Part shown: piece by piece, positions 15,431-35,138 of the stretch | Position numbering within the stretch: the stretch's first letter is position 1 | Layout: each line of letters starts with the position of its first letter | Assembly: GCF_030296935.1 (NCBI RefSeq) | Contig: NZ_AP028032.1 | Coordinates: forward strand, 1,984,001-2,048,000 | Length of the DNA: 64,000 nucleotides | Direction of reading: 5' to 3' | Origin: Coprobacter fastidiosus | Lineage (GTDB): Bacteria > Bacteroidota > Bacteroidia > Bacteroidales > Coprobacteraceae | The notes under the pieces: generated by a model | Told to the model about the DNA's origin: nothing | The model's input: only the letters and a program-made list of their open reading frames with translations | The model's database searches: none | Program-made: the position numbers and the translations under genes

Positions 15431-15460
15431 AATACAACATTTTATAAATAAAAGAATTAA

Positions 15461-16243
15461 TTACTTCCCCCTGTTATATCGGAGGACTTTCTCTGCATAC
15501 CGTTCTCCTAGTATAATTTGGCTATCGGTATCAAAATGAGGATCGTTCTCATCAATTAACGGTTTCAACCCCTCAGATGATACCACCTTAAATCGGGGAA
15601 TGCTATCTTCTAACGATCTGAGCATTTTATTGAAAGGGATTGTTCCTTCGGTATGCCCTGTCCAGTTCCATCGAGAAATTTCTCCCGCAACAAACAATAA
15701 ATCAGGCATATTCAAATCTGCACGCAACTGTTCAACCAATTTACAAATATAGATTTTATACGACTCGGGATAACGGCAATCGGCTTCCCCCTGATGCCAT
15801 AATACCGCCTTTAACCGACCATACTTCAAGGCTTCTCTAATTCGGCTCAACATCTCTCCATAATAATTATCCGATGCTCCTTTTTCCCATGATTTAATAG
15901 AAGAGCCGCCTCTGGCATTTACGACAAGCCCGATTTTACAATCACTCTTTTCTGAAACTTTACGGGCAAAAGAATAAGCCGGCCCTAATTTCTGCATTCC
16001 TATCCCTTTTCTTATTGTAGAATAACGATTCAGCGGATTAACGGCCGGTTCAAAAAAATTTCGGTCATTAAAAAGATAAACATTCACTAAAGTATCCATA
16101 ACAGCCGGTGTTAAAGTCGCCCGCCCTGCCATATTAGACTGACCGATACAAAGATATATGTCGAATTTCCCGGACGCTTCGGAACGGGCAATCATCATGG
16201 TAAACGTCAAACTACATATCAGATATGTAAAAAATCTTTTCAT
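15461..16243 (-). CDS. SASA-domain (sialate O-acetylesterase-like) carbohydrate esterase
   Basis: A secreted SGNH-like esterase of 260 residues with a signal peptide (MKRFFTYLICSLTFTMMIARSEA). The catalytic serine block is CIGQSNMAGRA near residue 35. NARGGSSIKSWEKG supplies oxyanion-hole residues, LWHQGEADC near 140-150 is a conserved block, and NDPHFDTDS near the C-terminus supplies the Asp and His. The family removes acetyl groups from sialic acid or from acetylated polysaccharides such as xylan. The specific substrate cannot be read here. It lies 30 bases before the repeat protein and 19 bases after the GH2 gene, so it belongs to the PUL and probably deacetylates the glycan before or during depolymerisation. 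Confidence 0.85.
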   Translation of the reverse strand: MKRFFTYLICSLTFTMMIARSEASGKFDIYLCIGQSNMAGRATLTPAVMDTLVNVYLFNDRNFFEPAVNPLNRYSTIRKGIGMQKLGPAYSFARKVSEKSDCKIGLVVNARGGSSIKSWEKGASDNYYGEMLSRIREALKYGRLKAVLWHQGEADCRYPESYKIYICKLVEQLRADLNMPDLLFVAGEISRWNWTGHTEGTIPFNKMLRSLEDSIPRFKVVSSEGLKPLIDENDPHFDTDSQIILGERYAEKVLRYNRGK

Positions 16244-16262
16244 TTTATAACCTGATTATCTC

Positions 16263-18938
16263 CTAATAATTTTTATAAATGCGAATAGCATTCAATATCG
16301 GTTCTCCTTCTATACGTTTAAAACCAACAGTCAGGCCTTTCCCGTCATTTACATTCACAATGAACTTCTGGATAACAGCACAACCAAAACCGTAATCTTC
16401 AGCAATATCGACCTTATCCATTACCGGATTACCATTTATTTCCAATCCGAAAGTACGCTTACTATACCCCCCGTTTTCCGTATCCGCGCCAAGATTATAT
16501 ACCAAAGATTCTTTCTTTTTATCAGTGTCCAATTCCGCCCAATAAAGATATACCGAATACTCTCCATCCGGGACATCCGCTTTAAAAGCTTCCAAACCGG
16601 TACGTTGAGTCTGGAAAATCGGATTATTGTCCGTTCCGAATATATCTATATCAGAACCTAACATCGAACCGAAGCCTGTTTTTCTGCGATAAGGCTCACC
16701 TCCGATATATCCCCAACTTCCCGGTTTATAAGGCTGTTCGGGTATCCAGATCATTTCTGCCGTACGATCTTCAAAATAACGGGGAGAACCGAGCATAACA
16801 TTCATTTCGGTAAAAGGAACGTCTCCATTTTTCAAATCATCGGGAATAAGTTTGAAATCGATCCGAATCATATCACGCAGCTCTTTCCCGTTTTTACGGG
16901 CAACTGCTTCCACAACATTTTCTCCATTGACAAACGGAACATCAAAAAACGCGATATTCTCTTCGCATTTTTTCGACCCGATACTTTTGCCGTTTACATA
17001 TAACTCAACCACCGGATAGTCAGAAAATACAGGAACAGATTGAACACATGTATTTTCTACCGTATTTACGACTCCTCCTCGATTTTTCCATTCTCGGTTA
17101 CCTATGCGCAAGACATCTTTGTTCCCTAAAGACGCCTCATAAAACAAATAGGTATCTTTACGCTCACGATCGAGCCCCGTTACACCCTTATTATTTACAT
17201 GAGGCACGGCATCTATTCGGGATTCGGAATAAAAATCATTCAGATTCCACATTGTAAATCCGGCAATAAACGGACGTGCCATCATTTCCCGCAAATAATG
17301 ACGATGATAAATAATTCCGTACTCTTGAGAAAAATCAAATCTCTCCGGTTTATAAGAGTGTAGTCTCGGATCAACTCCCGGCCCATATTCAGTCACCAAC
17401 AACACTTTTCCCTTATACTTATCATGAGCCCTGTCAAGAAGCCTTTGAAATTCATCGATATCCGGTTCATACCATCCTTGATACAAGTTCCATCCCATAA
17501 TCATCGGTATCTCCGTCAAATGAGCCCGTTCATAAAAATCAGGAGCATTATGGTATGCCATCATCGTATAACGGGACGTATCTTCTTTTCGAATAGTATT
17601 TTCCAACGTTCTCGCTGTCTTTTCCACAACGGGATAATAAGATTTTAGAAAATCCTCATCCGTACGCGGACGCCGAAGCAATATTTCATTCATATATCCC
17701 CAGATCATTACCGACGGGCGATTAAAATCCTGCCGGATCATCTCCTTCACCATATTTACCGAATTCTCAAGAAATTCCGGCGTATCGGTAACCGCATTCA
17801 CAACCGGTATTTCAACGGAAGTTACAATTCCCAACTTATCGCACATCTCCATAATAACCGGGTCTTGAGGATAATGAGATACTCTCAAGAAGTTGCTTCC
17901 CATCTGTTTCATCAACAAAATATCCCTGACATGCATCTCATCCCGCAAAGCATTTCCCTTAGCCAGATAATCCTGATGCCGATTATTTCCGACCAGCTTT
18001 CTCGGCTTACCGTTCAAGAAAAACCCCCGTTCCGGGTCGAACTCAAACCAACGAAGTCCGAGCGGATTAGAAACTTCGTCATAAAGGACATCGCCCTTTT
18101 TATCATAAACACGTGTATAAACTTGATAGCGATGCGGGTTATCAATATCCCAAAGCAAAGGATTATCGATTATGATTTTCTTTTGTATACCGGTTTCCGT
18201 AGTCCGAGATGCAATTTTCAGATTTGTCCGCAAAGATTTCACCTCTTTTCCGGTAGCATCGCATATTTTATTTTCAAGAATAATTTCCACAGGAGAATCA
18301 GTATCGTTACTGACCAAAGAGGTAATCTCCACAACCGCTTTTTTCTCTGTCACTTCAGGTGTACGAATATATACTCCCGAAGACGCATAATCATTTGTCG
18401 CCAAATGTACCTTATCGACAAACATCAGGTAAACATCTCTATAAATGCCTCCATAAAAGGTAAAATCTGCCGACAACGGAGGTATATTAGGATCATACCC
18501 GTTATCTACTTTTATAGCAAAAACATTTTTCTTTCCATAATTAAGGAAACGGCTGATATCAAAATTAAATCGGGTATATCCCCCTATATGTTTACCCACA
18601 TAAAGTCCGTTTACATAAAGTTCCACGACCTGATTCGCTCCCTCAAAAACAATAACCGCACTCTGATTTTCCCGGGACTCATCTACAAATATAGATTTCC
18701 TATACCACGCCGGACCTCTGTAATATCCCGGGATCTCATCATCTCCGTCAAGATTATTCCAAGTATGAGGAATATTTACGGTTTCCCACGAGCTATCATC
18801 AGCTCCGATATTTTGCGCATCAAAAGGAGATCCCGGACAAAACTTCCATCGGTCATTTATCGTATAGACTGTTCGTACTCCGGCTGAAGCTGTTGCGAAC
18901 AATGCTATTAGAAAAACAAATACTAAGTTCTTTCTCAT
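16263..18938 (-). CDS. Glycoside hydrolase family 2 enzyme with C-terminal malectin-like domain
   Basis: A secreted or periplasmic exo-acting glycosidase of 891 residues. After the signal peptide (to about residue 19) come the GH2 sugar-binding jelly roll (to about 175), an Ig-like domain (to about 300) and the TIM barrel. The acid/base glutamate is E418 in WGYMNE and the nucleophile E517 in LVTEYGPG; both are intact. ELYVNGKSIGSKKC marks an Ig-like domain near 650, and the last 180 residues, ending in NAIRIYKNY, look malectin-like. GH2 covers beta-galactosidase, beta-glucuronidase and beta-mannosidase; the linkage is not decided by what I can see. It is preceded by GH31 with a 9-base gap. 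Confidence 0.92.
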   Translation of the reverse strand: MRKNLVFVFLIALFATASAGVRTVYTINDRWKFCPGSPFDAQNIGADDSSWETVNIPHTWNNLDGDDEIPGYYRGPAWYRKSIFVDESRENQSAVIVFEGANQVVELYVNGLYVGKHIGGYTRFNFDISRFLNYGKKNVFAIKVDNGYDPNIPPLSADFTFYGGIYRDVYLMFVDKVHLATNDYASSGVYIRTPEVTEKKAVVEITSLVSNDTDSPVEIILENKICDATGKEVKSLRTNLKIASRTTETGIQKKIIIDNPLLWDIDNPHRYQVYTRVYDKKGDVLYDEVSNPLGLRWFEFDPERGFFLNGKPRKLVGNNRHQDYLAKGNALRDEMHVRDILLMKQMGSNFLRVSHYPQDPVIMEMCDKLGIVTSVEIPVVNAVTDTPEFLENSVNMVKEMIRQDFNRPSVMIWGYMNEILLRRPRTDEDFLKSYYPVVEKTARTLENTIRKEDTSRYTMMAYHNAPDFYERAHLTEIPMIMGWNLYQGWYEPDIDEFQRLLDRAHDKYKGKVLLVTEYGPGVDPRLHSYKPERFDFSQEYGIIYHRHYLREMMARPFIAGFTMWNLNDFYSESRIDAVPHVNNKGVTGLDRERKDTYLFYEASLGNKDVLRIGNREWKNRGGVVNTVENTCVQSVPVFSDYPVVELYVNGKSIGSKKCEENIAFFDVPFVNGENVVEAVARKNGKELRDMIRIDFKLIPDDLKNGDVPFTEMNVMLGSPRYFEDRTAEMIWIPEQPYKPGSWGYIGGEPYRRKTGFGSMLGSDIDIFGTDNNPIFQTQRTGLEAFKADVPDGEYSVYLYWAELDTDKKKESLVYNLGADTENGGYSKRTFGLEINGNPVMDKVDIAEDYGFGCAVIQKFIVNVNDGKGLTVGFKRIEGEPILNAIRIYKNY

Positions 18939-18947
18939 AATTATGCG

Positions 18948-21290
18948 TTATTTAAAATCGATTTTTATTTTTTCTCCTGTATAAAAAATTTCTCTTTCTA
19001 TCGGGGTAGATTGTTCCGGGAAATAAACTTTTACAATTACTCGTTGATTTTCAGTCATATTCCGATACTTTCCTATACGATCTCCCAATGTTACACTTTT
19101 ATCCGATTCATCCCACAAGACAGGACATATAGCAAACTCCCCGTTTTCATATCGATATGAGTCACCCTCATCATCATACCATTCGAAAGAGGCATCAGCC
19201 CCTGTATATATACGGAGTTCTACTTTCAGGTCAGGACATTCCGAAACATATTGTTTCACATCGGTCATAGGCAATATCGACCCGCCCCGCACAAAAAGAG
19301 GAATGACATCTAATGGTGACGAAGTTTTTTGCATACGTCCTCCACGATATGCCTCACCGGAATAAAAGTCATACCAATACGTTCCGGAATGTCCGGGCAG
19401 ATATGTACTCTTCTCCCGTGCACCGGGAGTCACGACAGGGCTAACCAGCAACGACGGACCGAACATATACGCATCGGCAATATCGTATGTAGATGTATCG
19501 GAGACAAAGTCCATACACAACCCTTTCATAACAGAGCCATGACGCTCTGTTACCTGCCGAGAGACGGAATAAATATAAGGTAACAATTTATATCGCAAGC
19601 GGATATATTTCAACTGTGTATCATAATATACAGAACTGGGTTCTCCAAATTGCCATATTTCTCTTGGTACATTCGTACCATGCGCCCGAAATAACGGAGA
19701 AAAACACCCAAACTGAAACCACCTAAGATACAATTCTTTATAGGCCGGATCATCCAATCCTTTCGGGAAACAAGCATCTCTTTCGGTTACAAAAAAACCT
19801 CCAATATCCGATGTCCAATAAGGAATGCCCGACATAGAAAGATTTATTCCCGCAGCAATCTGCTTGCGAAAATTCTCCCATGATGCAGATACGTCTCCCG
19901 ACCACACCGCCGTCGCATATCGTTGCTGAGAAGCAAACGCTGACCGGGTAAGTATAAACACCCGTTTTTCATCATTTTCGGTACGAAGTTTATCGTGTAA
20001 AAAACGTAACAATTCTAACGAATATACATTCAAATACCTATGAAATGAACCGATATACGTATTTCCGGCAGATTTTGTTTTCTCGGCCTGCTTCAACTGG
20101 GTAAACCCATCTCTGAAGGAAGGTTCTGTCGCATCCATCCACCATCCGTCAACACCTTGATCATATAGCCCTCGTTTCAAATGATTCCAGAATATTTCCC
20201 GAGCATAAGGATTGTAAGCATCAAATACTTTATAACCTGCCCAAGTAGGTTCATCAAACAAAGCGTGTATAGAATCAAGGTCTCTATAAACAGATGTTTC
20301 TTTTCCAAAACCAGGCCATACGGATAACGTAAAATGAACGTGATAATCATTCTGCAATCGGGCAATCGTCTCTTTAGGTCGGCTAAAATTCAACGTATCG
20401 AACATCAGGCCGTTCCAATGGGTCTTATCACCCCAATATTCCCAATCTTGTACAATATTATCAAGAGGGATACTATCTTCCCGATAGCGTTTCACGACAT
20501 TTTCTAATTCTGAGAACGAACGATAACGTTCTTTAGATTGCCAAAAACCGAAAACCCATTTACCGAACATCGGGACTCTCCCGGTAAGAGTTCGATAACC
20601 GGCGATTACCTCATCCATATTTTCCCCATAAACAAAATAATAATCTGAGGCATCTCCGACTTCCGAATCGAAACTGTATCCCTGTTCATTATCTCTAAAA
20701 CGGGTTTCAGAATAATTATCCCATAATATCCCGTATCGATTAGTAGAGATAAGAAATGGATTCACTATGTCCATATTTGCCTGTAACAAAAGAGCGGTAT
20801 CACCGCGATAATTCATGACACCTGTTTGATATTGACCTAAACCATACAGACCTTCTTTCTCTGTCGGGACAAAGCGTTGCGTTACGTGCAAGCAAGGTTC
20901 TTCGGCAACAGTATCTCTGCGGAACGTTCGAGCCTCCCCATTATTCTTCTCACGCAATAAAAGTCTGTCCGTACCGACCTCTCTAAATTCAAAGGCTTTC
21001 TCTTTTTTATCAAAAAGAATGATAAGTTCAGGAGTAACAAAACGGTACTCAGAAGAATTATCTTTTACAGTATAACCGGTATAACGAGGTAAGGAGGTAT
21101 CTACAACAAGTCTTTTCGTAACCAAAGTATCTCCCGACGGATATGATAATATCCGGACTATCCGCGGTGAAAAGAATTCGACCCGATAATCAACGTTATC
21201 TTCCCGAAAAGATATTATACCTGTTTCCGAGACAGAACATCCGGACAACAGAAAAACAAGAAGAATACAAATTCGGTCAATCATTTTCAT
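18948..21290 (-). CDS. Glycoside hydrolase family 31 lipoprotein (alpha-glycosidase)
   Basis: A retaining alpha-glycosidase of 780 residues. The N-terminus ICILLVFLLSGCS is a lipoprotein signal with the cysteine at 18, so the enzyme is membrane-anchored. An N-terminal beta-sandwich is followed by the GH31 barrel. The nucleophile is D386 in GWWMDATEPSF and the acid/base D466 in AVWSGDVSASW. FQFGCFSPLFRAHG near 525 and a C-terminal beta domain complete the fold. The WWMDATEP form of the nucleophile motif is common in polysaccharide-degrading Bacteroidota GH31 enzymes. Alpha-glucosidase and alpha-xylosidase activities both remain possible. Its start overlaps the preceding GH71/99-like gene by 14 bases, which implies translational coupling. 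Confidence 0.92.
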   Translation of the reverse strand: MKMIDRICILLVFLLSGCSVSETGIISFREDNVDYRVEFFSPRIVRILSYPSGDTLVTKRLVVDTSLPRYTGYTVKDNSSEYRFVTPELIILFDKKEKAFEFREVGTDRLLLREKNNGEARTFRRDTVAEEPCLHVTQRFVPTEKEGLYGLGQYQTGVMNYRGDTALLLQANMDIVNPFLISTNRYGILWDNYSETRFRDNEQGYSFDSEVGDASDYYFVYGENMDEVIAGYRTLTGRVPMFGKWVFGFWQSKERYRSFSELENVVKRYREDSIPLDNIVQDWEYWGDKTHWNGLMFDTLNFSRPKETIARLQNDYHVHFTLSVWPGFGKETSVYRDLDSIHALFDEPTWAGYKVFDAYNPYAREIFWNHLKRGLYDQGVDGWWMDATEPSFRDGFTQLKQAEKTKSAGNTYIGSFHRYLNVYSLELLRFLHDKLRTENDEKRVFILTRSAFASQQRYATAVWSGDVSASWENFRKQIAAGINLSMSGIPYWTSDIGGFFVTERDACFPKGLDDPAYKELYLRWFQFGCFSPLFRAHGTNVPREIWQFGEPSSVYYDTQLKYIRLRYKLLPYIYSVSRQVTERHGSVMKGLCMDFVSDTSTYDIADAYMFGPSLLVSPVVTPGAREKSTYLPGHSGTYWYDFYSGEAYRGGRMQKTSSPLDVIPLFVRGGSILPMTDVKQYVSECPDLKVELRIYTGADASFEWYDDEGDSYRYENGEFAICPVLWDESDKSVTLGDRIGKYRNMTENQRVIVKVYFPEQSTPIEREIFYTGEKIKIDFK

Positions 21291-23112
21291 AATGCATCAT
21301 CTGATATTGTAACATAATATTTCGAACATGCCCCCGTCCTTTAATATAAAATGCCGGATTATTCTCTTTATAAAAGATATTTCCCTTATAAAGACGTATT
21401 CGAACAGGTTTCCATTGACCGGTCTTATTTTTGCGAATACTTCCTACAACACTATATTTATCCTTAGGTATCCTATTTGTTTCGGAATATATCCGAATGA
21501 AATCATCTCCTTCATCTAAATATTCAAAACATATATATCCCTCATAATTATATTTTAAAAGCTTATGATGCAAATCCTTCGGCAAATAAAGTTTCAAACT
21601 TTTGCCGACATCATATCCCTGTTTATCGAGTGAGTCCCGTAAAAGATCTTTTTCCGAAAGGTTTAAATTTTCCTTCATCAAACGAGAAGACATTTTCAAG
21701 ACATAATCCGTACAAGCTCTCAATAATCCGTCCGCCTTTTTATATTTTTCTTTGGAAATATACTTAGCTGCATCATTTAACATTCGTACTTGCTTTTTTT
21801 CGATGTCTATGCCTGAATCTTTCAATAAGGCAAACTGTTTTCGAAGATAAAACAACCGTTCCGGCAAAAGCAATCCCCTTTTATCTGCAATCTTTTCTTT
21901 AAATAAAGAGGAATAATACAATGTAGTTTCCAGTTCACGTATTCCGTTTTCACGTGTCGGAGCAATTTCATGACCTTCCGTAAAATCGCTCCATGACGCA
22001 ATAAAAACCATGTCCAGACTATCCTTGTTCGCCATATTGAATCGCCACATTTTACGATATGTCTCTCCTCGATCTCTCGGAATATAAAAGAAATGCCCTC
22101 GTCCCCATCCTGCACATCCCCGATTATCCATACCGGGCATCACGAATCCCGACTTGATTCTGAAAACAGGATTCGGATTGTTCCAGATCGAATCACGAAA
22201 TGGTTTCATAAATTCGATCAAATCTTCCGTTTCCGCATAATTATCCCAATAAGGATGAGCCGCATCCATTATACGAACACGGGCAGGCAACCATGCTGTA
22301 GGAACTGCTCCCAAACCGATCCATTCATCAATTTCTTCGCTATGAGTAACCGGAATATAACGGTTATTTTCCAATCTTCCCCAATCTGCCCACCGACGTA
22401 AGACTACCGGAGCATTCATTCCTACAGGAATTCTGACTCTTTCATAAGCCCATTTATACTCTTCAACAGTCGCACCAGGACCAAATAGATAAAATACCGG
22501 ATATCCTTTTACTATCGGGGCTGTAACTCCAGTAAAAACACTATCGATAAGGTATTGGTAACAACGTACATAATGTTCGGTCTTTTTTTTGCGAGTATTA
22601 ATTTCAGGATAACGTTTGGTTATCCAATCATAATACAGCCAACCATCACACCAATTCACCCCGATTTCAAAATCGTATCGAGCCGCGACTTTTTGCATGG
22701 CTTTTAACAAGACATCATTCTCATGCCCCATAAATCCCCACTCGATAAAAAAGCCGTCGATCCCGGCAGTCTTTGCACTCAGAATTTGATACTCGATATA
22801 GTCTTCATCCAAATCGGACTGTATGCCGAGAATCGGATAATGAACCGATGCAATTTCATTCATATACGGCTCTTTATCTCCCGATAAATTATCTGCATTA
22901 TAACACAAGGAATTTATCCCCGTATGAGATTTTTGGGTATCGGCATACATAGTCCAACGACCTAACATCCCGTCATGATTTCGGGTATAACGTACTCCAT
23001 GATAATCGGCATATACTTTTTTGCCGTTCCCCGTATTCTTCGCTATCGTCGGATAACTTAATAGAAACAAAGACAGAAGCGGCATTAATCTATATAGTAG
23101 CCTTTTTTTCAT
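21277..23112 (-). CDS. GH71/GH99-like glycoside hydrolase, second copy (no sorting tail)
   Basis: A secreted enzyme-like protein of 611 residues with a signal peptide (MKKRLLYRLMPLLSLFLLSYPTIA). The catalytic region (about 30-400) matches the upstream neighbour step by step: KKVYADYHGVRYTR, PILGIQSDLD, SAKTAGIDGFFIEWG, CDGWLYY, TAPIVKGYPVFYLF, KSGFVMPGMDNRGC and IASWSDFTEGHEIAPT with D376 and E379. GH99 enzymes use two glutamates spaced as E-x-x-E at this place, whereas GH71 has an aspartate first. The pair here is D-x-x-E. Helical sequence follows, then a C-terminal domain with NYEGYICFEYLDEGDDFIRI. Likely substrates by family are alpha-1,3-glucan or alpha-mannan, which is unproven here. Confidence 0.78.
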   Translation of the reverse strand: MKKRLLYRLMPLLSLFLLSYPTIAKNTGNGKKVYADYHGVRYTRNHDGMLGRWTMYADTQKSHTGINSLCYNADNLSGDKEPYMNEIASVHYPILGIQSDLDEDYIEYQILSAKTAGIDGFFIEWGFMGHENDVLLKAMQKVAARYDFEIGVNWCDGWLYYDWITKRYPEINTRKKKTEHYVRCYQYLIDSVFTGVTAPIVKGYPVFYLFGPGATVEEYKWAYERVRIPVGMNAPVVLRRWADWGRLENNRYIPVTHSEEIDEWIGLGAVPTAWLPARVRIMDAAHPYWDNYAETEDLIEFMKPFRDSIWNNPNPVFRIKSGFVMPGMDNRGCAGWGRGHFFYIPRDRGETYRKMWRFNMANKDSLDMVFIASWSDFTEGHEIAPTRENGIRELETTLYYSSLFKEKIADKRGLLLPERLFYLRKQFALLKDSGIDIEKKQVRMLNDAAKYISKEKYKKADGLLRACTDYVLKMSSRLMKENLNLSEKDLLRDSLDKQGYDVGKSLKLYLPKDLHHKLLKYNYEGYICFEYLDEGDDFIRIYSETNRIPKDKYSVVGSIRKNKTGQWKPVRIRLYKGNIFYKENNPAFYIKGRGHVRNIMLQYQMMHYEND

Positions 23113-23131
23113 GATCCGGATATTTTATCGG

Positions 23132-25216
23132 TTAACGGATAAACTTACATGAGGAATACTGGCTGTCCGAAACAATAAACGCAATATACACTCCCGAAGA
23201 CAAACTTGTAAGATCTACTGTTTCAACCGCTTTTGTCACAAGCATATCACAAACCGAACTTCCCCCAGCAGCATTATATATCTGCAAACGGGCATTTTCC
23301 CCTGCATTAAGAATATTCAGTTTTTTCCCGGACATAAAAAGCCGTACAGATGTTTCGGATACCGATTTTGAAACAGCTCCCGATGTTGTCGAATAAACGG
23401 TAAAATCAAATGACAGATTTCTGATCTTAGAAACCTTCGAATCGTCTCCATAAAACGAAATATCGCTATTTCCCGATTCTGCTCCATATTTTACATTCTC
23501 TTTATATAAGCGTATTTTCGCAGTTTTCCATGCACCCAGTCCTTCATGCTTAAGTTGCGCTATCGTTTTGAACATATCTCGGGGTTCTTTATATGTTCCG
23601 GATACGATATTGATATTCTTACCCCATGTGTCATCCCAATATTCGAAATTCATATATCCCTCATAATTCTGGGCAGCCAATTTACCTTTAAGATCATTGT
23701 CTTTTATCGTTACTCCGGTACGGCCATTAGACAATACATATTCACCGTCATCATTCAATGAGCCTGTAATCGTCAAACCGGCTGCATCGATATGATAACT
23801 CTCTGAAGTTACCCCTGCTTCCAACTGAGCAAACCGGTCTTTCATATCCTCAATCTCCGATTCTGCATCGGCGTAATCTCCATCGGATATAGACATGGCT
23901 ATCTTATCAAGATCAGAAGTATAAGCAGAACCGTCTATGCCGCAAAGAGTAAAAAACTCAGCTTTCTTACGTAACTTAAATAGTTCGAGCGGCAGGGTTA
24001 TACCCGATTCATCATAGGAGGTTTCACCTTTAAACTGTGTCGCATATTTAAGCGTCATACGCAAATCACGATCTCCGTTCTCGACAGTCGGTTCGATTTC
24101 ATGCCCTTCGGTATAATCATTCCATGATCCGATATAAATCATGTTTAACATATTCTTATATTTCAGATTCAATTCCCACATTCTCTCATAGGTATCTCCA
24201 TCATCTCTCGGAATATAAGAAAGTTTTCCGGTCGTTGACCATCCTCCACACCCGTAGTTATTCATTCCGGGAGCTACAAATCCCGATTTGACGGGATATC
24301 CCGAACGCCATACCGTCGTAGCAAAAGCATTCAAAAATATTTCACAATCATCAGCAGAAGCATATCGGTGAAATTTAGGAGTCAGATGATAACCGGTACG
24401 TATGCGTTCAGGCATCCAAGGTGTAGGCACGACTTTATTTTCATTCACCCATTCAGAACCGGCTTGTGTCAACGGACTTTTAGGAGTATATACATCGTTC
24501 GTCAAAGACGGGTTAAGTGTCGTACGCATAATTACATTCGGAAATTTATCCGTACCGCTTACCGGATAACCATCCGGATACGTATAAGTATATTCACGAA
24601 TCGTTTTAAACTCTTCGGCGGTAAATCCGTCATGAAACAAATAAAATACAGGTTTACCATTGACAATCGGTGCTGTCGAACCGGTAAACACATTATCTAT
24701 AAGATATTGCATACAGGTAATAAAATACTCTACGTTCTCTTCTCGTGTACCGGCATGCCATCCCTTTTCCATCAACCATCCATCACAAATATTAACGCCC
24801 ACTTCAAAATCATACTTTTTCGCAACCTCCTGAATTTTTTGCAAAAGAGTGTTCGATGTATGGTCTATATAACCCCATTCCACAAAAAATCCGTCAATCC
24901 CGGCAGTTTTGGCACTTAATACTTGATATTCGATATTATCCGGATCGTATTGCGATTGCATACCCACCAAAGGATATTCATAGGCCGCGATATTATGCTG
25001 TCCATTCGCCAAAATCAGATCAGGATTATACGTTAATTGAGTAACGCCTGACTTTTCCGGGCTGTAAGTCATTTTCGAAGCATACTTCCATTCTCCGAAT
25101 TCACCGTCATAGAGACGGGTACGGCGGATTCCATGATAATCGGCATATACCTTTTTTTGCGAATAAACGGGAAAAAGTAAAACCGTCAGCAGAAATAAAG
25201 TCAACAATCTTTTCAT
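23132..25216 (-). CDS. GH71/GH99-like glycoside hydrolase, first copy, with type-IX-like sorting tail
   Basis: A secreted protein of 694 residues. The signal peptide (MKRLLTLFLLTVLLFPVYSQ) is followed by a barrel recognisable from ADYHGIRRTRLYDG, PLVGMQSQYDPDNIEYQVL, GIDGFFVEWGYID, GVNICDGWL, KSGFVAPGMNNYGC and GSWNDYTEGHEIEPT, with acidic residues D367 and E370. A helical stretch near 400-470 and a second beta domain (NYEGYMNFEYWDDTWG) follow. The last 70 residues (LNILNAGENARLQIYNAAGG, then SSGVYIAFIVSDSQYSSCKF) look like a type A sorting domain, which the paralogue at 21277-23112 lacks. The two genes are 19 bases apart and probably arose by tandem duplication. The substrate is unknown. Confidence 0.8.
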   Translation of the reverse strand: MKRLLTLFLLTVLLFPVYSQKKVYADYHGIRRTRLYDGEFGEWKYASKMTYSPEKSGVTQLTYNPDLILANGQHNIAAYEYPLVGMQSQYDPDNIEYQVLSAKTAGIDGFFVEWGYIDHTSNTLLQKIQEVAKKYDFEVGVNICDGWLMEKGWHAGTREENVEYFITCMQYLIDNVFTGSTAPIVNGKPVFYLFHDGFTAEEFKTIREYTYTYPDGYPVSGTDKFPNVIMRTTLNPSLTNDVYTPKSPLTQAGSEWVNENKVVPTPWMPERIRTGYHLTPKFHRYASADDCEIFLNAFATTVWRSGYPVKSGFVAPGMNNYGCGGWSTTGKLSYIPRDDGDTYERMWELNLKYKNMLNMIYIGSWNDYTEGHEIEPTVENGDRDLRMTLKYATQFKGETSYDESGITLPLELFKLRKKAEFFTLCGIDGSAYTSDLDKIAMSISDGDYADAESEIEDMKDRFAQLEAGVTSESYHIDAAGLTITGSLNDDGEYVLSNGRTGVTIKDNDLKGKLAAQNYEGYMNFEYWDDTWGKNINIVSGTYKEPRDMFKTIAQLKHEGLGAWKTAKIRLYKENVKYGAESGNSDISFYGDDSKVSKIRNLSFDFTVYSTTSGAVSKSVSETSVRLFMSGKKLNILNAGENARLQIYNAAGGSSVCDMLVTKAVETVDLTSLSSGVYIAFIVSDSQYSSCKFIR

Positions 25217-25323
25217 AAAACACTATTTGAACAGAAGTTATACATTCTTGATTAGGATTACGAAAAAAGAGAATACACGGTATAGCATATAAAAATGCCA
25301 TACCGCATATTTTCATTCAAGAT

Positions 25324-26865
25324 TTATTTTTTCGGAAGCTTGATCGATACTGTTATGATACGGGCTGTCGGATTATTCGACACAACCTGCGTATCGCTCA
25401 AGATTTTCATTACACCGATACGGCCGCCTCCTGCAGTAGAGGTATCTACCGTTTTAAATGCAATTATATCTCCGACAACAAACGGATTGATTTTGTTCGA
25501 TGTTATATTAGATGCAGAAATAGCATTCGATATAGACTCTGCCGTGGCATTATCGAAATCAAATCCGGGAACTGCCAACAAACGAGTTTTGTTTTGAACC
25601 TCCATATCTGCTACCGATCCGTTCTTTCCTTTAAATTCAGAACATTTCGTATCATTACCTCCATCTATTGCATACATACGCAATACCCCTTGTCCGCCAT
25701 AAGCATAAAATTTGAGATCTACATTTGAAGCGTTGGCCGAACTTTCAAGTGCATAATCTACCGAATAAGTCTTCATATCTTTCAATGAGATCAAGGCATA
25801 TACATCCGGATAATTTGCATTCCCATTAGCCAATATCTGGCTGCCGACAGAAAGATTAGCGACAAAATCCATATTGACAATCGCCGTCATCGTCGCCTCC
25901 GATGTCTTATCCACAACATCGGTAGCCACAATTTTCAGCTTAGATGTCGCATTCGTCAACAATACATCCAAAGATTCGGTAACCGAAAGAGGAGAGTCTG
26001 CAAAATCTTTCGTAGCGGCAAGCACCTCTTGCGAATCTTCTATACGATAAATTTTCACATTGCGGATACCGCGTTGAGATTCCATACGCAATGTAATCGC
26101 TTTCGTTTCATCCTTATCCGCAAATACAGTATCTTCTTTCAACGTAATAGTCGGAGGTGCTGGTGTCAGATAATTTACCGTCATCGTAACAATTTTCACT
26201 TGTCCGTAAACATCGGTAGCTTTTACTTTAAAACCTTTGTCCCCTTCCATATACATAATCTGCTCATCAAAAACATATTCGGTCTCAGCATTATCAAACT
26301 CGATCGGGAAACCATATTGCATTTGTCCGCTTTCCGACACAAGATACATCTCGATCTTCTTCAATCCGGCGACAGAGGTTACCGTGAAATGCGTTTTCGG
26401 CATATCCCCGCCAACCAACTCATCATAAGTAATCGATTCAGGATCAAAGACTATCGACGGACCTTCTTTTATTCCCGTAACTCCTAACTCCAAAGTCGCT
26501 TTGGCTTCCCGGTTCAGTTTATCGATCGCAGTAACGACAAAAGCTTTATAATCTTCCTGATAGTTCAGGTTCTCAGACAGGCTATATGCCTTCTCATTAA
26601 AGAACGTCGTTACCGTTTTATAATCGATCATCCCTGTTTCCGTCTCGATTTGCATTATAACTTTTTTCAGTCCAAGCTCAGAACGGATAACAGCGACTAC
26701 CGGCAAATTATCCACTTCATTCATATCGGCCTGAAGATCATCATAAGCGAACTTAATAACCGGTTGGCTCAATGACGGATCTAAGGTCTCTTCGTCATCT
26801 TTACAGCTCGAAAACGGTAAAATGCAAGCTGTAAGAAACAATATTGATAATATTTTTTTTAACAT
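25324..26865 (-). CDS. PUL surface lipoprotein with Ig-like repeats (SusE-position protein)
   Basis: A predicted cell-surface glycan-binding lipoprotein of 513 residues in the SusE/SGBP position. The signal ends in PFSSCKDDEE, with cysteine 21 followed by the acidic CKDDEE surface-export signature. Three Ig-like repeats follow. Each has a pattern of the type SELGLKKVIMQIETETG, SVAGLKKIEMYLVSESG or SQRGIRNVKIYRIED, then a VTAIDKLNREA- or VKATDVYGQV-like strand. Residues about 333-513 are one copy of the domain found twice in the protein at 14021-15430 (LKDMKTYSVDYA, LRMYAIDGGND, TRLLAVPGFDFDNAT, GDIIAFKT). Binding is inferred from position, not from a known binding site. Confidence 0.8.
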   Translation of the reverse strand: MLKKILSILFLTACILPFSSCKDDEETLDPSLSQPVIKFAYDDLQADMNEVDNLPVVAVIRSELGLKKVIMQIETETGMIDYKTVTTFFNEKAYSLSENLNYQEDYKAFVVTAIDKLNREAKATLELGVTGIKEGPSIVFDPESITYDELVGGDMPKTHFTVTSVAGLKKIEMYLVSESGQMQYGFPIEFDNAETEYVFDEQIMYMEGDKGFKVKATDVYGQVKIVTMTVNYLTPAPPTITLKEDTVFADKDETKAITLRMESQRGIRNVKIYRIEDSQEVLAATKDFADSPLSVTESLDVLLTNATSKLKIVATDVVDKTSEATMTAIVNMDFVANLSVGSQILANGNANYPDVYALISLKDMKTYSVDYALESSANASNVDLKFYAYGGQGVLRMYAIDGGNDTKCSEFKGKNGSVADMEVQNKTRLLAVPGFDFDNATAESISNAISASNITSNKINPFVVGDIIAFKTVDTSTAGGGRIGVMKILSDTQVVSNNPTARIITVSIKLPKK

Positions 26866-26900
26866 ACGTTTATATATTAAGCGTTACTACTTATGATAAA

Positions 26901-27512
26901 CTATTTTTTATAATAGCAATATGAGTCAAAGACATGAATTACACCGTTTACAGGCATAATATTGCTGGTGATAGCTGCTCTCATCGGAGAATTTCCATTT
27001 GTCCCCGTATCATTGATAATCACTTTACCCGCATCTGCTTGCCATGGATTTTTCCGTACCAGGATAGTCATAAGACCTTCTTCTCCTCTTAGCAAAGTAA
27101 GAACATGGATTGCTTCTACGGGCAAATCTCCATAAGCGCTATAACTTCCTTCAATAATATGATACTGCAATAATTTTTTTACGCTTTCCATATCACAATC
27201 AGAAATAGATGATATTCCCGGAAAACGATCTGCCATAAAATTTTTCATGGCAGTATTGTTCAATGCCAAAAAAGTATATTCGGTATCAGTCTGAGTAAAA
27301 TAATCTTTCATTCCGGTATATTCTATTGCTTCGATATAGGTTGAAAATATATCCGGACGAGAATTAATATACTCCCATGCAGTCATATTCACATGCGGAT
27401 CAAGAACAGAACTTTCATAGTCGTAATTTTTCTGCAACGGCATGTCACAACTATTCATCGTACCGATAATGACCAGTAGAACCGCTATCTTATTTAATAA
27501 ATTCTTCAACAT
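26901..27512 (-). CDS. Fasciclin (FAS1) domain lipoprotein
   Basis: A predicted outer-membrane lipoprotein of 203 residues. The signal ends in IIGTMNSCD with the lipid cysteine near 22. One FAS1 domain follows: WEYINSRPDIFSTYIEAIEYTGM (first helices), EYTFLALNNTAMKNFM (the H1-like motif, near 90), LLQYHIIEGSYS, and a C-terminal NIMPVNGVIHVFDSYCYYKK in place of the H2 motif. FAS1 domains mediate adhesion and carbohydrate or protein contacts. FAS1 lipoproteins recur after SusD in some Bacteroidota PULs, where their role is not settled. It lies 27 bases downstream of susD and 35 bases before the Ig-repeat lipoprotein, and is co-transcribed with them. Confidence 0.85.
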   Translation of the reverse strand: MLKNLLNKIAVLLVIIGTMNSCDMPLQKNYDYESSVLDPHVNMTAWEYINSRPDIFSTYIEAIEYTGMKDYFTQTDTEYTFLALNNTAMKNFMADRFPGISSISDCDMESVKKLLQYHIIEGSYSAYGDLPVEAIHVLTLLRGEEGLMTILVRKNPWQADAGKVIINDTGTNGNSPMRAAITSNIMPVNGVIHVFDSYCYYKK

Positions 27513-27539
27513 GATTCTATATTTTAGATGTGGTTATTT

Positions 27540-28973
27540 TTACTTACCGTAATACGGATTCTGTGTTAATTTCGGATTCTCATTGATATGGGAATAGTGT
27601 ATCGGGAAAAGTTCATTTCCATCTTGGTTCATTCCATTAATAGGCTCCATGACTTCTTTCCACTTTTTCGTACGCAACAAATCGAACCAACGGCGTCCTT
27701 CTCCGACCAACTCTATTTGACGTTCATCCAAAATATAATTGATAATATCGTCCTCCGAAGCAAAATCCATAGACGTAGCGGTTGTCAACCCAGCACGGTC
27801 GCGAATCTGTTTTACCAAATCCAACGCTTCTTCCCATTTTCCCATACGGGCACGCGCTTCGGCCTGTAACAAAATCATATCTGAATAGCGGTAAATAGGA
27901 TAAGCCACTTCACATGTCTTATTTAAAGTCGTACTGATTGTTCCTCCGATAAATTTATTGAGCTCCCACCCATTTTGATAATACTGAGTTGTATATGCTT
28001 TTCTTAAATCATCATCAGAAAACTTTTCAAGAATAGCATCTGATAAAACGGCGGCACGGTTTCCCGATCCAGTAAACCATTGATACATATAACTATATCC
28101 ACTCGATCCCACTTCGTCCATATCAAAATGGACAACAAAGATGAGTTCTTTAGTCGTGTATTCATCATTCTCAGGAGTATCATCCGAAGGTTTTCCGTTC
28201 AGTTCTTCCACAAACATTTTCCGCCAATTCTCAATACTTGTTTCAAGTTTCATAAACGTAGCGTCTCCGGACATCTTATCAATAGTCTGATCTGCCAAAT
28301 TATACTCCTCAAGCCACATATACACATCTGCCATAATAGCCCAAACGCCATAAATAGAAATGCGTTTCCGTTCTTTATTATTCGTTTTATCCATCAATTC
28401 TTCAGCTTTTTTAAGGTCTTCAAGAATCACATTCCTAAGGATATAATTTTTATCGGTACGCTCTTTATATAGATCAGTACTATACTTTTCGTTCGGCTCA
28501 GTAAACAAAGGTACGTCTCCCCAAACGCGAATAGCATAAAAATAACCGAGAGCTCTCATGGCATAGGCCTGTCCTAAATAATCGTTACGAGTAGCGATAG
28601 AAGGCATATCGACTGTCGGAATATACTTAATCGCCAGATTTGCCTGATTGATCATTTTATATAAATCTGTCCACTTGGCACATTCATGACTCGTCGTTAT
28701 CAAGTTATCGATTACCCTTTGTTGATCTGCTGCAGAAGAAGAACCGGGAGACATATTGTCTGAACGGAACTCTCCCCAGTAAAAATAATTCTTCCGCATA
28801 GTCGTACGGAAAAGTCCGTAAATTTCATTTACTCCGGCTTTTACATCCCGTGAAGTTTGCCACATCTCTTCTACCGGTATTTCACTTATCGGCTCTTCCT
28901 CAAGAAATGCCTCGCAAGAACTCAACGAAAAAGCAAGTGCGGCAACTCCAAAAAATAACTTTATCCTATTCAT
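27540..28973 (-). CDS. SusD/RagB-family nutrient-binding lipoprotein
   Basis: The lipoprotein lid of the SusCD outer-membrane glycan importer, 477 residues. The signal MNRIKLFFGVAALAFSLSSC ends at cysteine 20, followed by EAFLEEEPISEIPVEEMWQTS, the usual SusD start. Four TPR-like helical pairs are implied by QANLAIKYIP, YLGQAYAMRALGYFYAIRVWGDVPLF and EDLKKAEELMDK. The C-terminal family block includes YRYSDMILLQAEARARMGKWEEAL, LVKQIRDRAGL and DERQIELVGEGRRWFDLLR. It follows susC by 11 bases, and the two gene products form the complex. The glycan bound is not deducible. Confidence 0.95.
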   Translation of the reverse strand: MNRIKLFFGVAALAFSLSSCEAFLEEEPISEIPVEEMWQTSRDVKAGVNEIYGLFRTTMRKNYFYWGEFRSDNMSPGSSSAADQQRVIDNLITTSHECAKWTDLYKMINQANLAIKYIPTVDMPSIATRNDYLGQAYAMRALGYFYAIRVWGDVPLFTEPNEKYSTDLYKERTDKNYILRNVILEDLKKAEELMDKTNNKERKRISIYGVWAIMADVYMWLEEYNLADQTIDKMSGDATFMKLETSIENWRKMFVEELNGKPSDDTPENDEYTTKELIFVVHFDMDEVGSSGYSYMYQWFTGSGNRAAVLSDAILEKFSDDDLRKAYTTQYYQNGWELNKFIGGTISTTLNKTCEVAYPIYRYSDMILLQAEARARMGKWEEALDLVKQIRDRAGLTTATSMDFASEDDIINYILDERQIELVGEGRRWFDLLRTKKWKEVMEPINGMNQDGNELFPIHYSHINENPKLTQNPYYGK

Positions 28974-28984
28974 AGTAGTTTCGA

Positions 28985-31900
28985 TTAAAAATTAACAGAC
29001 ATACCTACACCATATTCTCTTTTTTTCGGGTAACGATAATTATCCCGACCGATTTGTAACGGATCGCTCGTCGAAAACTCCGGATCAAATCCCGAATATT
29101 TAGTCCAAGTAAGAGCGTTATTTACAAAAGCATACAGATTTATACCTTTTACACCACATTTCCGACACCAATTTTTCGGTAGGTTATAACTTAACCGCAC
29201 ATTCTGTAATCGGATGAAAGAACCGTCTTCGACATAGAAAGAGTTAGCATAACGGGCATTATCATATTCATCATTATAAGGTCTCGGATAAAGGGCTATA
29301 TCTCCCTGTTTCAACCATGTATTATAAATTACATCCGGAGAAGGTGTCGTTCCGGTATATTTAAACATATTCCGGTTATGCTCACCGAAGTTGTAAATCT
29401 CTCCACCCAAAGAGTAATAAAAAGAAATAAACAAGCTCCAATCCTTATACGTAAACTGAGTGCTAAGACCTCCTGTAACATCAGGAAGTGCATTGCCGAT
29501 AATCATACGGTCATTATCATCGATAATTCCGTCACGACTACCTTCTGGTTCTTCCCAGTTAATATCTCCTCCGCGAAAAGGTTTTCCGTTCGGTAAAGTT
29601 TTCTGCAAGACTTTACCGGTATATTCCGTTCCATTCAATAAATATTTATTTTGAAACACACCATTTTCAAAAACCGGTGTAAGCTGTTGCCATGATCCTT
29701 CGGCAAAAGCATTAGACTCATCATATTGGAAAACATTAATATATTTATATCCATAGAAGTCTCCGATACGTCCTCCTTCTTGCATCCACCATAAATCTCC
29801 TTCCAAATAAGCTTTACCTTCAGAAAGACGCTCTATCTGATTTATGTTTCGTGAAATATTAAACGAAGCATTCCATCGGAAATTTTTTGTACGGATGATA
29901 TCTCCGGCAATAGCGACTTCGAATCCTCGGTTGCTGACCTCGCCCACATTGGTTTTCATCGTTGAAAAACCCGACTCTTTCGGGAGTTCATAATCTGCCA
30001 ACAATCCTGAAGTATATTTGTCATAGTAATCAAATGTAGCGGTAAGACGGCTATTCCAGAAAGAAAGGTCAAGACCGATATCAAACTGTTTTGTCTCTTC
30101 CCATTTCAGATTGTCTTTACCGATACGAGTTGCAGAAACGCCTCCGACACCGTCATAAATAGTGCTCGGAGAATAAGTATATACGTAATCGTAATTTCCG
30201 ATAGACTCATTTCCGGTTACACCATAACTTACACGAATCTTCGCATCATCGAGTGCAGGTTTGGCAAATTGCATGAACTTCTCATCAGAAATACGCCAAC
30301 CGACAGATGCAGACGGGAAATTCCCCCATTTATTATTCTCAGCAAAACGAGAAGATCCGTCTCGGCGCACATTTGCCGTCAATAAATAACGTCCTTTATA
30401 ATCATAAGTTATACGAGCAAACAAAGAAGCTAAAGAATGGCTCGTCTGCCATGTACCGGTAGAAGTTTGAGTCAAATTAGACGCAAAAGCGTTCATCGTA
30501 TAAATATAATCGGTAGAAGAATTAGTCCCTACAAGAATTTCATTTTGATTTGACCAACGCTGAGCACTAAAACCCGCCATTGCAGAAAAATTATGGTCTC
30601 CCCATTTGTGGCTATAACTGAAATAATCTTCATTCATCCAGTTCCAGCCTAAATAGTTATAAGAACCGCCTTCATTACTTTTTTGCCACTCATCCGTAAT
30701 AATACTGGGATATAATTTCTTCCGTTTACTAAGCGAGAAATTGGCATTGATATTCGTACGGAACTTCAAACCTTTATAAATGTCAAATTCAAAGAACTGA
30801 TAAAAATTCCCTTTATATGCGTCTGTAAAATCTGTTGTATACTCGACTTGCGCAATCGGATTTTTCTGTCCGTTAAACACTCCCACAAGCGAGCCATCAG
30901 GGTAGTATGTCGAGAAATAAGGACGACGACTCAACATTGCATTTAATAATGCATTCTCGTTTATACCCTCTTTTTTAGAGTAAGTAAGAGCGATGCGGCT
31001 ACCCATATTCATCCATTTTACCGGTTTGTAATCAGAATTAATACGAGTTGTCAACCGCTGAAATGCCGTATTAGGAACTATACCTCTTTCATTAAAATAA
31101 CCGGTATTGATAAAATATTTGATTTTGTCGCTGCCACCGCCCACACTAATATCAACCTGATCCTTCTGTGCAGTTTGCAAAATCATATCCTGATAGTCAT
31201 TATCTACATTAAAAAATACATTCAACGAGTCTTGAATCATTTGGATACTCTCATCTGCATTACCGATATTATTATCTAAAAAATACTGACGACGAGCATT
31301 ATCATAATAACGACGATCAGCACGGTTTGCCTGAGCCAACTTATGAGACAATGTTCCCCATGAATGATTGTACTTCACATCAATACGGGGCTTACCCGCT
31401 TCTCCTTGCTTAGTTGTAATGATAATCACACCATTAGCAGAACGAGAACCGTAAATAGCTGCCGAAGCTGCATCTTTCAAAATTTCCATAGATGCAATAT
31501 CCGTTGGGTTGATTCCATCAATATCATCCAAAGGAATACCATCCACAATATAAAGGGGTTTTACTCCATCGGCAGAGAATGTAGATGTTCCACGTATTTT
31601 AATTGAAGAAGTTTCCCCGGGTTGGCCAGAACCGGAAATAATCTGAATTCCGGCAGTCTGTCCTTGTAAAGCCTCAAACACATTCGTCGCCATCTTCTGC
31701 TCTATATCTTTACTGGATATAGAACTGATAGCACCTGTTACATCTCGTTTTTTCATCGTTCCGTATCCGACAACGACTACTTCATCGAGATTTTTAGAAT
31801 TTTCGGACAAAATAACTTTCATATCCGGCTTTGATGTAACCTCTTTAGTTACATACCCGACATACGAAACGATCAAAGTAGCACCGCTTTTCGATACTTT

Positions 31901-32122
31901 AATCGTAAACTTACCATCCAAATCGGTCGCTGCAACATTTTTTGTCCCTTTTTCTGTGACGGTAGCACCGGGCAATGTTTCCCCTGCCTCGTCCAGAACA
32001 ACACCTTTCACACTTACTTTACCGGAAGTCTGCGCATTTATTGGCTGCACCAGCAATAAGAAATTGAAAAAAGCCATTAGGCATCCGACAATACGGACTA
32101 TTCGCTCTGTTCCACTTTTCAT
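28985..32122 (-). CDS. SusC/RagA-family TonB-linked outer-membrane transporter
   Basis: The barrel of the PUL importer; energy is supplied by TonB across the periplasm. From the ATG at 32122 the protein has about 1,045 residues, with a signal peptide through QPINAQ. The order is a carboxypeptidase-regulatory-like domain (VKGVVLDEAGETLPGATV to VSYVGYV), the TonB box and plug (LDEVVVVGYGTMKKRDVTGA, EALQGQTAGIQI, YIVDGIPLDDI, GSRSANGVIIITTK), and a 22-strand barrel ending in REYGVGMSVNF. Starts at 32203 or 32218 in the same frame are possible and would add up to 32 residues, but the signal peptide fits 32122 best. The leader holds a promoter and a terminator-like hairpin. Confidence 0.94.
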   Translation of the reverse strand: MKSGTERIVRIVGCLMAFFNFLLLVQPINAQTSGKVSVKGVVLDEAGETLPGATVTEKGTKNVAATDLDGKFTIKVSKSGATLIVSYVGYVTKEVTSKPDMKVILSENSKNLDEVVVVGYGTMKKRDVTGAISSISSKDIEQKMATNVFEALQGQTAGIQIISGSGQPGETSSIKIRGTSTFSADGVKPLYIVDGIPLDDIDGINPTDIASMEILKDAASAAIYGSRSANGVIIITTKQGEAGKPRIDVKYNHSWGTLSHKLAQANRADRRYYDNARRQYFLDNNIGNADESIQMIQDSLNVFFNVDNDYQDMILQTAQKDQVDISVGGGSDKIKYFINTGYFNERGIVPNTAFQRLTTRINSDYKPVKWMNMGSRIALTYSKKEGINENALLNAMLSRRPYFSTYYPDGSLVGVFNGQKNPIAQVEYTTDFTDAYKGNFYQFFEFDIYKGLKFRTNINANFSLSKRKKLYPSIITDEWQKSNEGGSYNYLGWNWMNEDYFSYSHKWGDHNFSAMAGFSAQRWSNQNEILVGTNSSTDYIYTMNAFASNLTQTSTGTWQTSHSLASLFARITYDYKGRYLLTANVRRDGSSRFAENNKWGNFPSASVGWRISDEKFMQFAKPALDDAKIRVSYGVTGNESIGNYDYVYTYSPSTIYDGVGGVSATRIGKDNLKWEETKQFDIGLDLSFWNSRLTATFDYYDKYTSGLLADYELPKESGFSTMKTNVGEVSNRGFEVAIAGDIIRTKNFRWNASFNISRNINQIERLSEGKAYLEGDLWWMQEGGRIGDFYGYKYINVFQYDESNAFAEGSWQQLTPVFENGVFQNKYLLNGTEYTGKVLQKTLPNGKPFRGGDINWEEPEGSRDGIIDDNDRMIIGNALPDVTGGLSTQFTYKDWSLFISFYYSLGGEIYNFGEHNRNMFKYTGTTPSPDVIYNTWLKQGDIALYPRPYNDEYDNARYANSFYVEDGSFIRLQNVRLSYNLPKNWCRKCGVKGINLYAFVNNALTWTKYSGFDPEFSTSDPLQIGRDNYRYPKKREYGVGMSVNF

Positions 32123-32207: not shown

Positions 32208-32230
32208 TGTCCAAACAAATGTTCGTTTTA
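32208..32230 (-). repeat. Downstream inverted copy complementary to the leader hairpin
   Basis: On the minus strand this reads AACGAACATTTGTTTGGACA within its 23 bases. The same 20-mer with two changes occurs on the plus strand at 32348-32367, inside the leader hairpin. In the susC transcript this segment could therefore pair with the 5' arm of the hairpin. It overlaps the first codons of the longer susC reading frame. Confidence 0.7.
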
Positions 32231-32330
32231 CTAAACGGAATGAAAAGTCTTAAATATGTAGTGTTGGATATTCGATAAATGTATTGATAACAAAAATTTG
32301 TGTAAAAATTAAGGAAGAAATTTAGTGAAT

Positions 32331-32366
32331 AAAAAAAAGTCCGAATAAACGAACGTTTATTTGGAC
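32331..32366 (-). terminator. Terminator-like hairpin in the susC leader
   Basis: Read on the minus strand, GTCCAAATAAACG, loop TT and CGTTTATTCGGAC form a 13-bp stem with one internal mismatch, followed directly by eight Ts (32338-32331). It lies about 40-70 bases downstream of the predicted start and over 200 bases before the susC ATG. It could be an attenuator, or the end of a short leader RNA of about 75 nt. Confidence 0.75.
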
Positions 32367-32413
32367 AGTCTAATCAATCGGCATAAAAACAGATTTAGGC
32401 TCAATTTCACGGA

Positions 32414-32444
32414 CAAATATATGGCATAAATTTTAAATAACAAA
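32414..32444 (-). promoter_or_regulatory. Promoter of the PUL (susC) operon
   Basis: On the minus strand TTTG (32444-32441), exactly 19 bases, then TATATTTG (32421-32414) match both elements of the Bacteroidota primary promoter. The start is predicted near 32408, giving a leader of about 286 bases. Confidence 0.75.
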
Positions 32445-33369: not shown

Positions 33370-33402
33370 ACTCTTGAATTTTCGTATTTCCATTATACGA
33401 CT

Positions 33403-33442
33403 AAAAAAAATATCCGGACTTTAAAGTCCGGATATTTTTTTT
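33403..33442. terminator. Bidirectional intrinsic terminator after the RRM gene
   Basis: A 20-bp perfect inverted repeat (core TATCCGGACTTT / AAAGTCCGGATA) is flanked by eight As and eight Ts. It can serve the RRM gene on plus and, on minus, transcripts arriving from the tRNA side. Confidence 0.92.
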
Positions 33443-33500
33443 AGTCCCAATATTTTCTGCCTTAAAAATCAGGACAAACCGCCCCCAATAAAACAAAAAA

Positions 33501-33533: not shown

Positions 33534-33605
<72 letters not shown>

Positions 33606-34961: not shown

Positions 34962-35034
34962 AGCGGGAAACGGGACTCAAACCCGCGACCCTCAGCTTGG
35001 AAGGCTAATGCTCTATCAACTGAGCTATTCCCGC
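34962..35034 (-). tRNA. tRNA-Gly (TCC)
   Basis: A cloverleaf of 73 bases on minus with a GCGGGAA/TTTCCCGC acceptor stem, AGCTCAGTTGATAGAGC D arm, anticodon TCC (35001-34999) and GGTTTGAGTCC T arm. CCA is not encoded. It is the second gene of a two-tRNA unit. Confidence 0.95.
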
Positions 35035-35055: not shown

Positions 35056-35138
35056 TGGGCGAAGATGGATTCGAACCACCGAAGTCGTAAGACAGCAGAT
35101 TTACAGTCTGCCCCATTTGGCCACTCTGGTATTCGCCC
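35056..35138 (-). tRNA. tRNA-Tyr (GTA)
   Basis: A cloverleaf of 83 bases on minus with a GGGCGAA/TTCGCCC acceptor stem, anticodon GTA (35104-35102) and the long variable arm expected for tyrosine. It is followed 21 bases later by tRNA-Gly. Confidence 0.95.

Follow-up and report, generated by a model that had tools for sequence, protein, structure and literature searches.

A putative Mpi-type DNA-inversion switch acting on a transcription terminator in a susC leader of Coprobacter fastidiosus

Small invertible segments of gut Bacteroidales have mostly been read as invertible promoters. In Bacteroides fragilis, Mpi controls invertible promoters in 13 regions, and seven of these are capsule promoters (PMC4747536, PMC5903667); tyrosine-recombinase invertons of the same species include the Tsr0667 SusC/SusD shufflons and Tsr19, with more promoter-gene repeats reported alongside lower expression (PMC4747536). 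For cwpV of C. difficile, which has a surface protein downstream, the promoter precedes the segment and is not part of it, and inversion is proposed to generate, where the left repeat meets the segment, an intrinsic terminator that in the OFF state lies 60-70 nt after the transcription start (Emerson et al., 2009; PMC2784873). Here we analyse a 64-kb stretch of the C. fastidiosus chromosome (64,000 nucleotides, the window), in which a susC gene heads a PUL. The leader of this gene is probably an Mpi-type DNA-inversion switch that operates as a phase-variable attenuator, with the assembly representing its OFF state.

On the minus strand, the leader is preceded by a promoter, TTTG-N19-TATATTTG (32444-32414; TTTG at 32444-32441, a 19-nt spacer and TATATTTG at 32421-32414), which matches the Bacteroides sigma consensus exactly, as the initial annotation had stated, and is located outside and upstream of the segment predicted to invert. 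The TTTG box is part of the Bacteroides promoter consensus. The transcription start is predicted from the consensus at about 32409, and TAnnTTTG at -7 is documented for Bacteroides (PMC4747536). Perfect matches to TTTG-N19-21-TAnnTTTG occur four times in the window, both strands included, and that of the susC leader alone is followed by a strong terminator at no more than 110 nt. After a gap of about 40 nt comes a hairpin, GTCCAAATAAACGTTCGTTTATTCGGAC (32366-32339, minus strand), and then, on the same strand, the run of eight Ts that had been described, TTTTTTTT (32338-32331). The susC ATG (32122-32120) is 209 nt downstream of the last T, in agreement with the distance of over 200 bases given earlier. 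The hairpin had been drawn as a 13-bp stem with one mismatch: stem and mismatch are there (11 pairs plus one A.C mismatch in the RNA, with a GUUC loop), and pairing at a 13th position would leave a loop of just 2 nt. The stem is poor in G-C pairs and the hairpin alone folds at -9.9 kcal/mol; the 46-nt hairpin stretch folds at -11.1 kcal/mol (z = -2.8), as well as which only 1 of 200 dinucleotide shuffles folded, and a terminator this good at the same distance appeared in 2 of 300 dinucleotide-shuffled leaders.

The gene that would be switched, susC (28985-32122, minus strand; TIGR04056, E = 1.8e-267), is the first of the PUL, the rest of which (14021-28973, minus strand) encodes, by Pfam matches, SusD, a fasciclin-domain protein, glycoside hydrolases (GH99/71-like, GH31 and GH2), and a sialate-type acetylesterase, together with unassigned genes. 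From gene order, these remaining genes are expected to follow susC transcription. Three minus-strand tRNA genes lie upstream of the PUL (33534-33605, 34962-35034 and 35056-35138), and a 20-pair terminator-like palindrome, GACTAAAAAAAATATCCGGAC...GTCCGGATATTTTTTTTAGTC (33399-33446), is found between the susC leader and a tRNA gene. The possibility that the leader hairpin terminates an upstream transcript was rejected, given that the tRNA gene at 33605-33534 (minus strand) has its own terminator-like hairpin at 33525-33500.

When the genome was searched with the leader, it was the hairpin alone that recurred at other places, and a pattern search defined it as a 28-bp palindrome, GTCCAAAnAAACG-NN-CGTTTnTTTGGAC, occurring in pairs. 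Two half-sites flanking a 2-bp core are the site layout of serine invertases such as Hin and Gin. The leader hairpin is one such site (site A; core TT, 32353-32352), and 130 bp downstream is its inverted partner, GTTTAGTAAAACGAACATTTGTTTGGAC (site B; 32236-32209, minus strand; core AA, 32223-32222), with a degenerate left half and a score of 19/25; the initial annotation had seen neither this partner nor the sister pairs elsewhere in the genome. Scores of at least 18/25 were obtained in the window at positions 32339 and 32209 only, and the chance expectation for a partner scoring at least 17 at 110-150 bp is about 0.0013 per site. Altogether, the 3.44-Mb genome has 11 site pairs spaced 117-142 bp apart, a count that comes from pattern searches, which may miss weak pairs. 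Central dinucleotides match inverted within every one of the 11 (TT/AA in eight, AT/AT in two, TA/TA in one), which is what strand exchange requires. With up to three mismatches allowed, the site pattern gave 11 sites in this genome, none for the reversed control and none in four congeners. Within site A, AAACGTTCGT fits ARACGTWCGT, which we take to be the consensus of the B. fragilis Mpi site. At one other place (G000:C1:1854833-1854876), two palindromes overlap, 16 bp apart, with no partner at about 130 bp. The paired sites of the leader very probably delimit a serine-invertase inversion region, whose predicted invertible segment, deduced from the two sites and their cores, spans 130 bp from core to core (32223-32352).

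Candidate enzymes are present in the genome, which encodes two proteins with a resolvase domain (PF00239) that are 54% identical to each other. Both match NCBIfam NF009949, 'master DNA invertase Mpi family' (E = 4e-81 and 4e-70), with bit scores of 271.4 and 235.6 that are under the curated cut-off of 272, the better one by less than 1 bit, and the first aligned to the solved structures of gamma-delta resolvase and DNA invertases. Exact palindrome pairs at matching spacing were found in four of 393 Bacteroidales genomes, three of which have an Mpi-family gene, itself present in 36 of the 393; in the fourth, with a GG core, the pair looks like a chance occurrence. In a genome from another Bacteroidales family, paired sites of this kind occur in four paralogous leaders, with TTTG-N19-TACCTTTG immediately external to them and a conserved GTCCCAATTGCCTGAAACAGG stretch next; their site A would form a strong hairpin only when inverted, with no T tract. 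Opposite orientations were sought among these four paralogous loci, and all were the same way round.

Each segment was inverted in silico between its cores and then folded. Site A of the window, which as sequenced folds at -9.9 kcal/mol and is followed by T8, becomes on inversion GTCCAAATAAACGTTCGTTTTACTAAAC, with no predicted fold (0.0 kcal/mol) and no T tract, the latter being within the segment and hence moved away; the hairpin re-forms at site B, followed by AAAAGATGG and again no T tract. Another susC leader with this arrangement (L048; G000:C1:2541400-2544900, sites at 1682 and 1799) has no site A terminator as sequenced and acquires one of -18.0 kcal/mol, followed by TTTTC, when inverted. 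Its stem is extended by AAGGTT outside the site pairing with AACCTT from the far segment end, and this extension, being shifted by one base, was missed by a simple pair count and detected by the folding scan. L048 appears to have been sequenced in the ON state. At a third locus, the leader of a gene for a 787-aa secreted protein with a metalloprotease-like gene next to it (L050; G000:C1:3178800-3185000, sites at 1599 and 1728), the terminator folds at -14.7 kcal/mol as sequenced versus -4.8 kcal/mol inverted. Three such orientation-specific loci were obtained in none of 300 randomisations in which flanks and segments were randomised and the sites kept.

We propose that an Mpi-family serine invertase, encoded elsewhere in the chromosome, would recombine sites A and B and so turn around the 130 bp between the 2-bp cores, while the promoter, not being part of the segment, would keep its place upstream. 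In the sequenced, OFF orientation, the near-perfect palindrome of site A and the T8 tract would form an intrinsic terminator and transcription would stop after about 75-79 nt; in the inverted, ON orientation, site A would have neither fold nor T tract, site B would have a hairpin with no T tract, and transcription would read through into susC. The expected outcome is ON/OFF heterogeneity of the whole PUL through an invertible terminator. From the sequence we infer the inversion, the invertase that acts, the efficiency of termination and the assignment of ON and OFF; once an inversion region is granted, it is quite probable that the terminator is what inversion switches.

The 11 pairs of the genome show two designs. 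At four loci (L040, L041, L044 and L049), a TAnnTTTG promoter is inside the segment and abuts a site. Those of L041 and L044 face away from the downstream gene, as would be seen in an invertible promoter in its OFF state. The inner promoter of L049 (G000:C1:2586200-2589700, sites at 1676 and 1806, TA core) faces a gene for a 183-aa protein that resembles an ECF sigma factor, with an anti-sigma-like gene next; this may be a phase-variable sigma factor. At six loci (L039, L042, L043, L046, which is that of the window, L048 and L050), the promoter is outside the segment, on the gene strand and 44-83 nt upstream of site A, and L047 has no promoter of either placement. Since TAnnTTTG is present in the 100 nt upstream of site A at six of the seven loci lacking an inner promoter, against 0.69 expected, the segment often lies between promoter and gene; on the opposite strand of the same 100 nt, none of the seven has this motif. 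Folding revealed no strong intrinsic terminator in either orientation at the other four of these seven loci, and hence the terminator mechanism is not general to the class. These four may act otherwise, with Rho as one option, or not at all.

Most Bacteroides invertons are invertible promoters (PMC4747536, PMC11892184) and, with four sister loci having inner promoters, the segment of the window might also be a classical invertible promoter. What would matter then is a promoter-like match inside the segment facing susC, TTTA-N19-TACATTTA, the outer promoter and hairpin being incidental and the assembly ON. This match is weak, with one mismatch per box, and sits in the middle of the segment; the four clear inner promoters, by contrast, adjoin a site. 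Perfect TAnnTTTG is absent from the segment on both strands, and the outer promoter is a perfect match. We therefore consider an invertible promoter at this locus unlikely.

An attenuator that is fixed would stop transcription by default until a trans factor or small molecule permits read-through, its repeats not being recombined. Promoter and terminator are indeed real, and the early stop with a ~75-nt RNA put forward in the initial annotation fits the sequence as assembled. A default stop with regulated read-through, which it had added, found no support: no antiterminator was found in the roughly 40 nt that separate the hairpin from the promoter, Rfam gave no match, and the hairpin is absent from orthologous leaders. 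A riboswitch or other Rfam leader RNA was discarded, with no match at the gathering score and weak matches far under the cut-offs, as was an antiterminator formed by pairing of the 5' arm of the hairpin with 32223-32207, both stretches being members of the paired-site family. Leaders of orthologous SusC (65-73% identity; Bacteroides, Paludibacter, Alistipes, Prevotella and others), in a scan of genome contigs that excludes C. fastidiosus itself, had neither the sites nor this terminator, which dismisses a conserved PUL attenuator. A fixed attenuator would also leave unexplained the inverted partner, the 11 core-matched pairs, the Mpi-family genes and the terminator of L048, present only after inversion, and we judge it improbable. 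Because the hairpin is a recombination site with an inverted partner and the T tract is inside the segment, control is probably by DNA inversion.

In the genome of C. fastidiosus itself, the sites are found in three of 23 susC leaders, and that of the window is the only one of the 23 to combine the full promoter consensus with a strong site terminator as sequenced. About 124 nt ahead of the start of another of its susC genes (G000:C1:1077753-1080833) is a strong terminator-like hairpin of different sequence, TGGGACTATGG...CATAGTCCCA (-16.4); this leader has no paired sites. Four susC orthologs from Bacteroides and a Prevotellaceae MAG (L075, L077, L080 and L081) have in common TAGGGT about 20 nt before TACTTTTG; this motif, absent from the leader of the window, is possibly an activator or -33 motif.

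The near-constant pairs, 117-142 bp apart and before surface genes, would also fit operators of a dimeric, DNA-looping transcription factor, with the hairpin as a side effect. Nevertheless, the core dinucleotide varies from one pair to the next and yet the two members of each pair always agree in the inverted sense, the inner promoters of two pairs point away from the gene that follows, and sites are located both upstream and downstream of promoters, so that looping operators seem very improbable. Least probable is a former inversion switch, now immobile, whose leader is permanently terminated or ordinary. In its favour are the degeneracy of site B in its left half and the single known orientation; against it, cores and right halves remain intact, and a similar one-sided degeneracy is seen in other pairs.

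Beyond the leader of the window, there is a wider reading, slightly less probable than not, in which a global Mpi-type invertase flips leader segments, not promoters, at about half of the inversion loci of this species. These would constitute genome-wide phase-variable transcription attenuators before susC and secreted-protein genes, with terminators made in part of the recombination site and in part of flanks that pair in one orientation only. Should leader segments behind a fixed outer promoter indeed behave as flip-switch terminators, invertible segments lacking an inner promoter deserve re-examination, and whether a PUL takes up its glycan would depend on chance in the individual cell in addition to the glycan itself. 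In this genome, two susC loci were apparently caught in opposite states, which makes a direct test simple.

How the proposed switch relates to described systems can now be specified. The FopS sRNAs of B. thetaiotaomicron have, as here, a short RNA, a canonical promoter, a Rho-independent terminator and a role in susC control, but they are trans-acting and a mostly intergenic family (PMC11697453), whereas the leader of the window matches no Rfam family. Tsr0667 and Tsr19 share with it an inversion affecting SusC/SusD or surface expression and differ in recombinase class and in that promoters or gene cassettes are what moves there. In the flg switch of C. difficile, too, the promoter is separated from the gene by an invertible leader, and transcripts terminate in the OFF state; termination there is Rho-dependent (PMC7446863), versus the intrinsic kind predicted in the leader of the window, and sister loci that lack hairpin and T tract may, by analogy, follow the flg pattern. 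In the literature searched, whose coverage is incomplete, invertible terminators are not reported for Bacteroidota, and we do not claim priority. The arrangement most resembles cwpV: the promoter precedes the segment, and a terminator is predicted where repeat and segment join, in just one of the two orientations. However, cwpV has 21-bp repeats 195 bp apart and a tyrosine recombinase, RecV, and its inversion and reporters have been tested (PMC2784873), whereas the sites at the locus of the window are 28-bp palindromes around a 2-bp core, spaced 130 bp apart, with a predicted Mpi-family serine invertase, a Bacteroidales host and the susC of a PUL downstream. As its sites and the matching enzymes are of the serine type, it would work like cwpV without being a member of that system. 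With the B. fragilis Mpi system it shares a global serine invertase of one NCBI family, small segments scattered in number over the genome, TAnnTTTG promoters, surface genes and, at four loci, a promoter inside the segment; unlike in B. fragilis, the promoter is outside at the window and five sister loci, so that it is the leader that would flip, with a terminator at three of them. The leader of the window would hence be a variant within the Mpi-type inversion regions, set apart by its fixed promoter.
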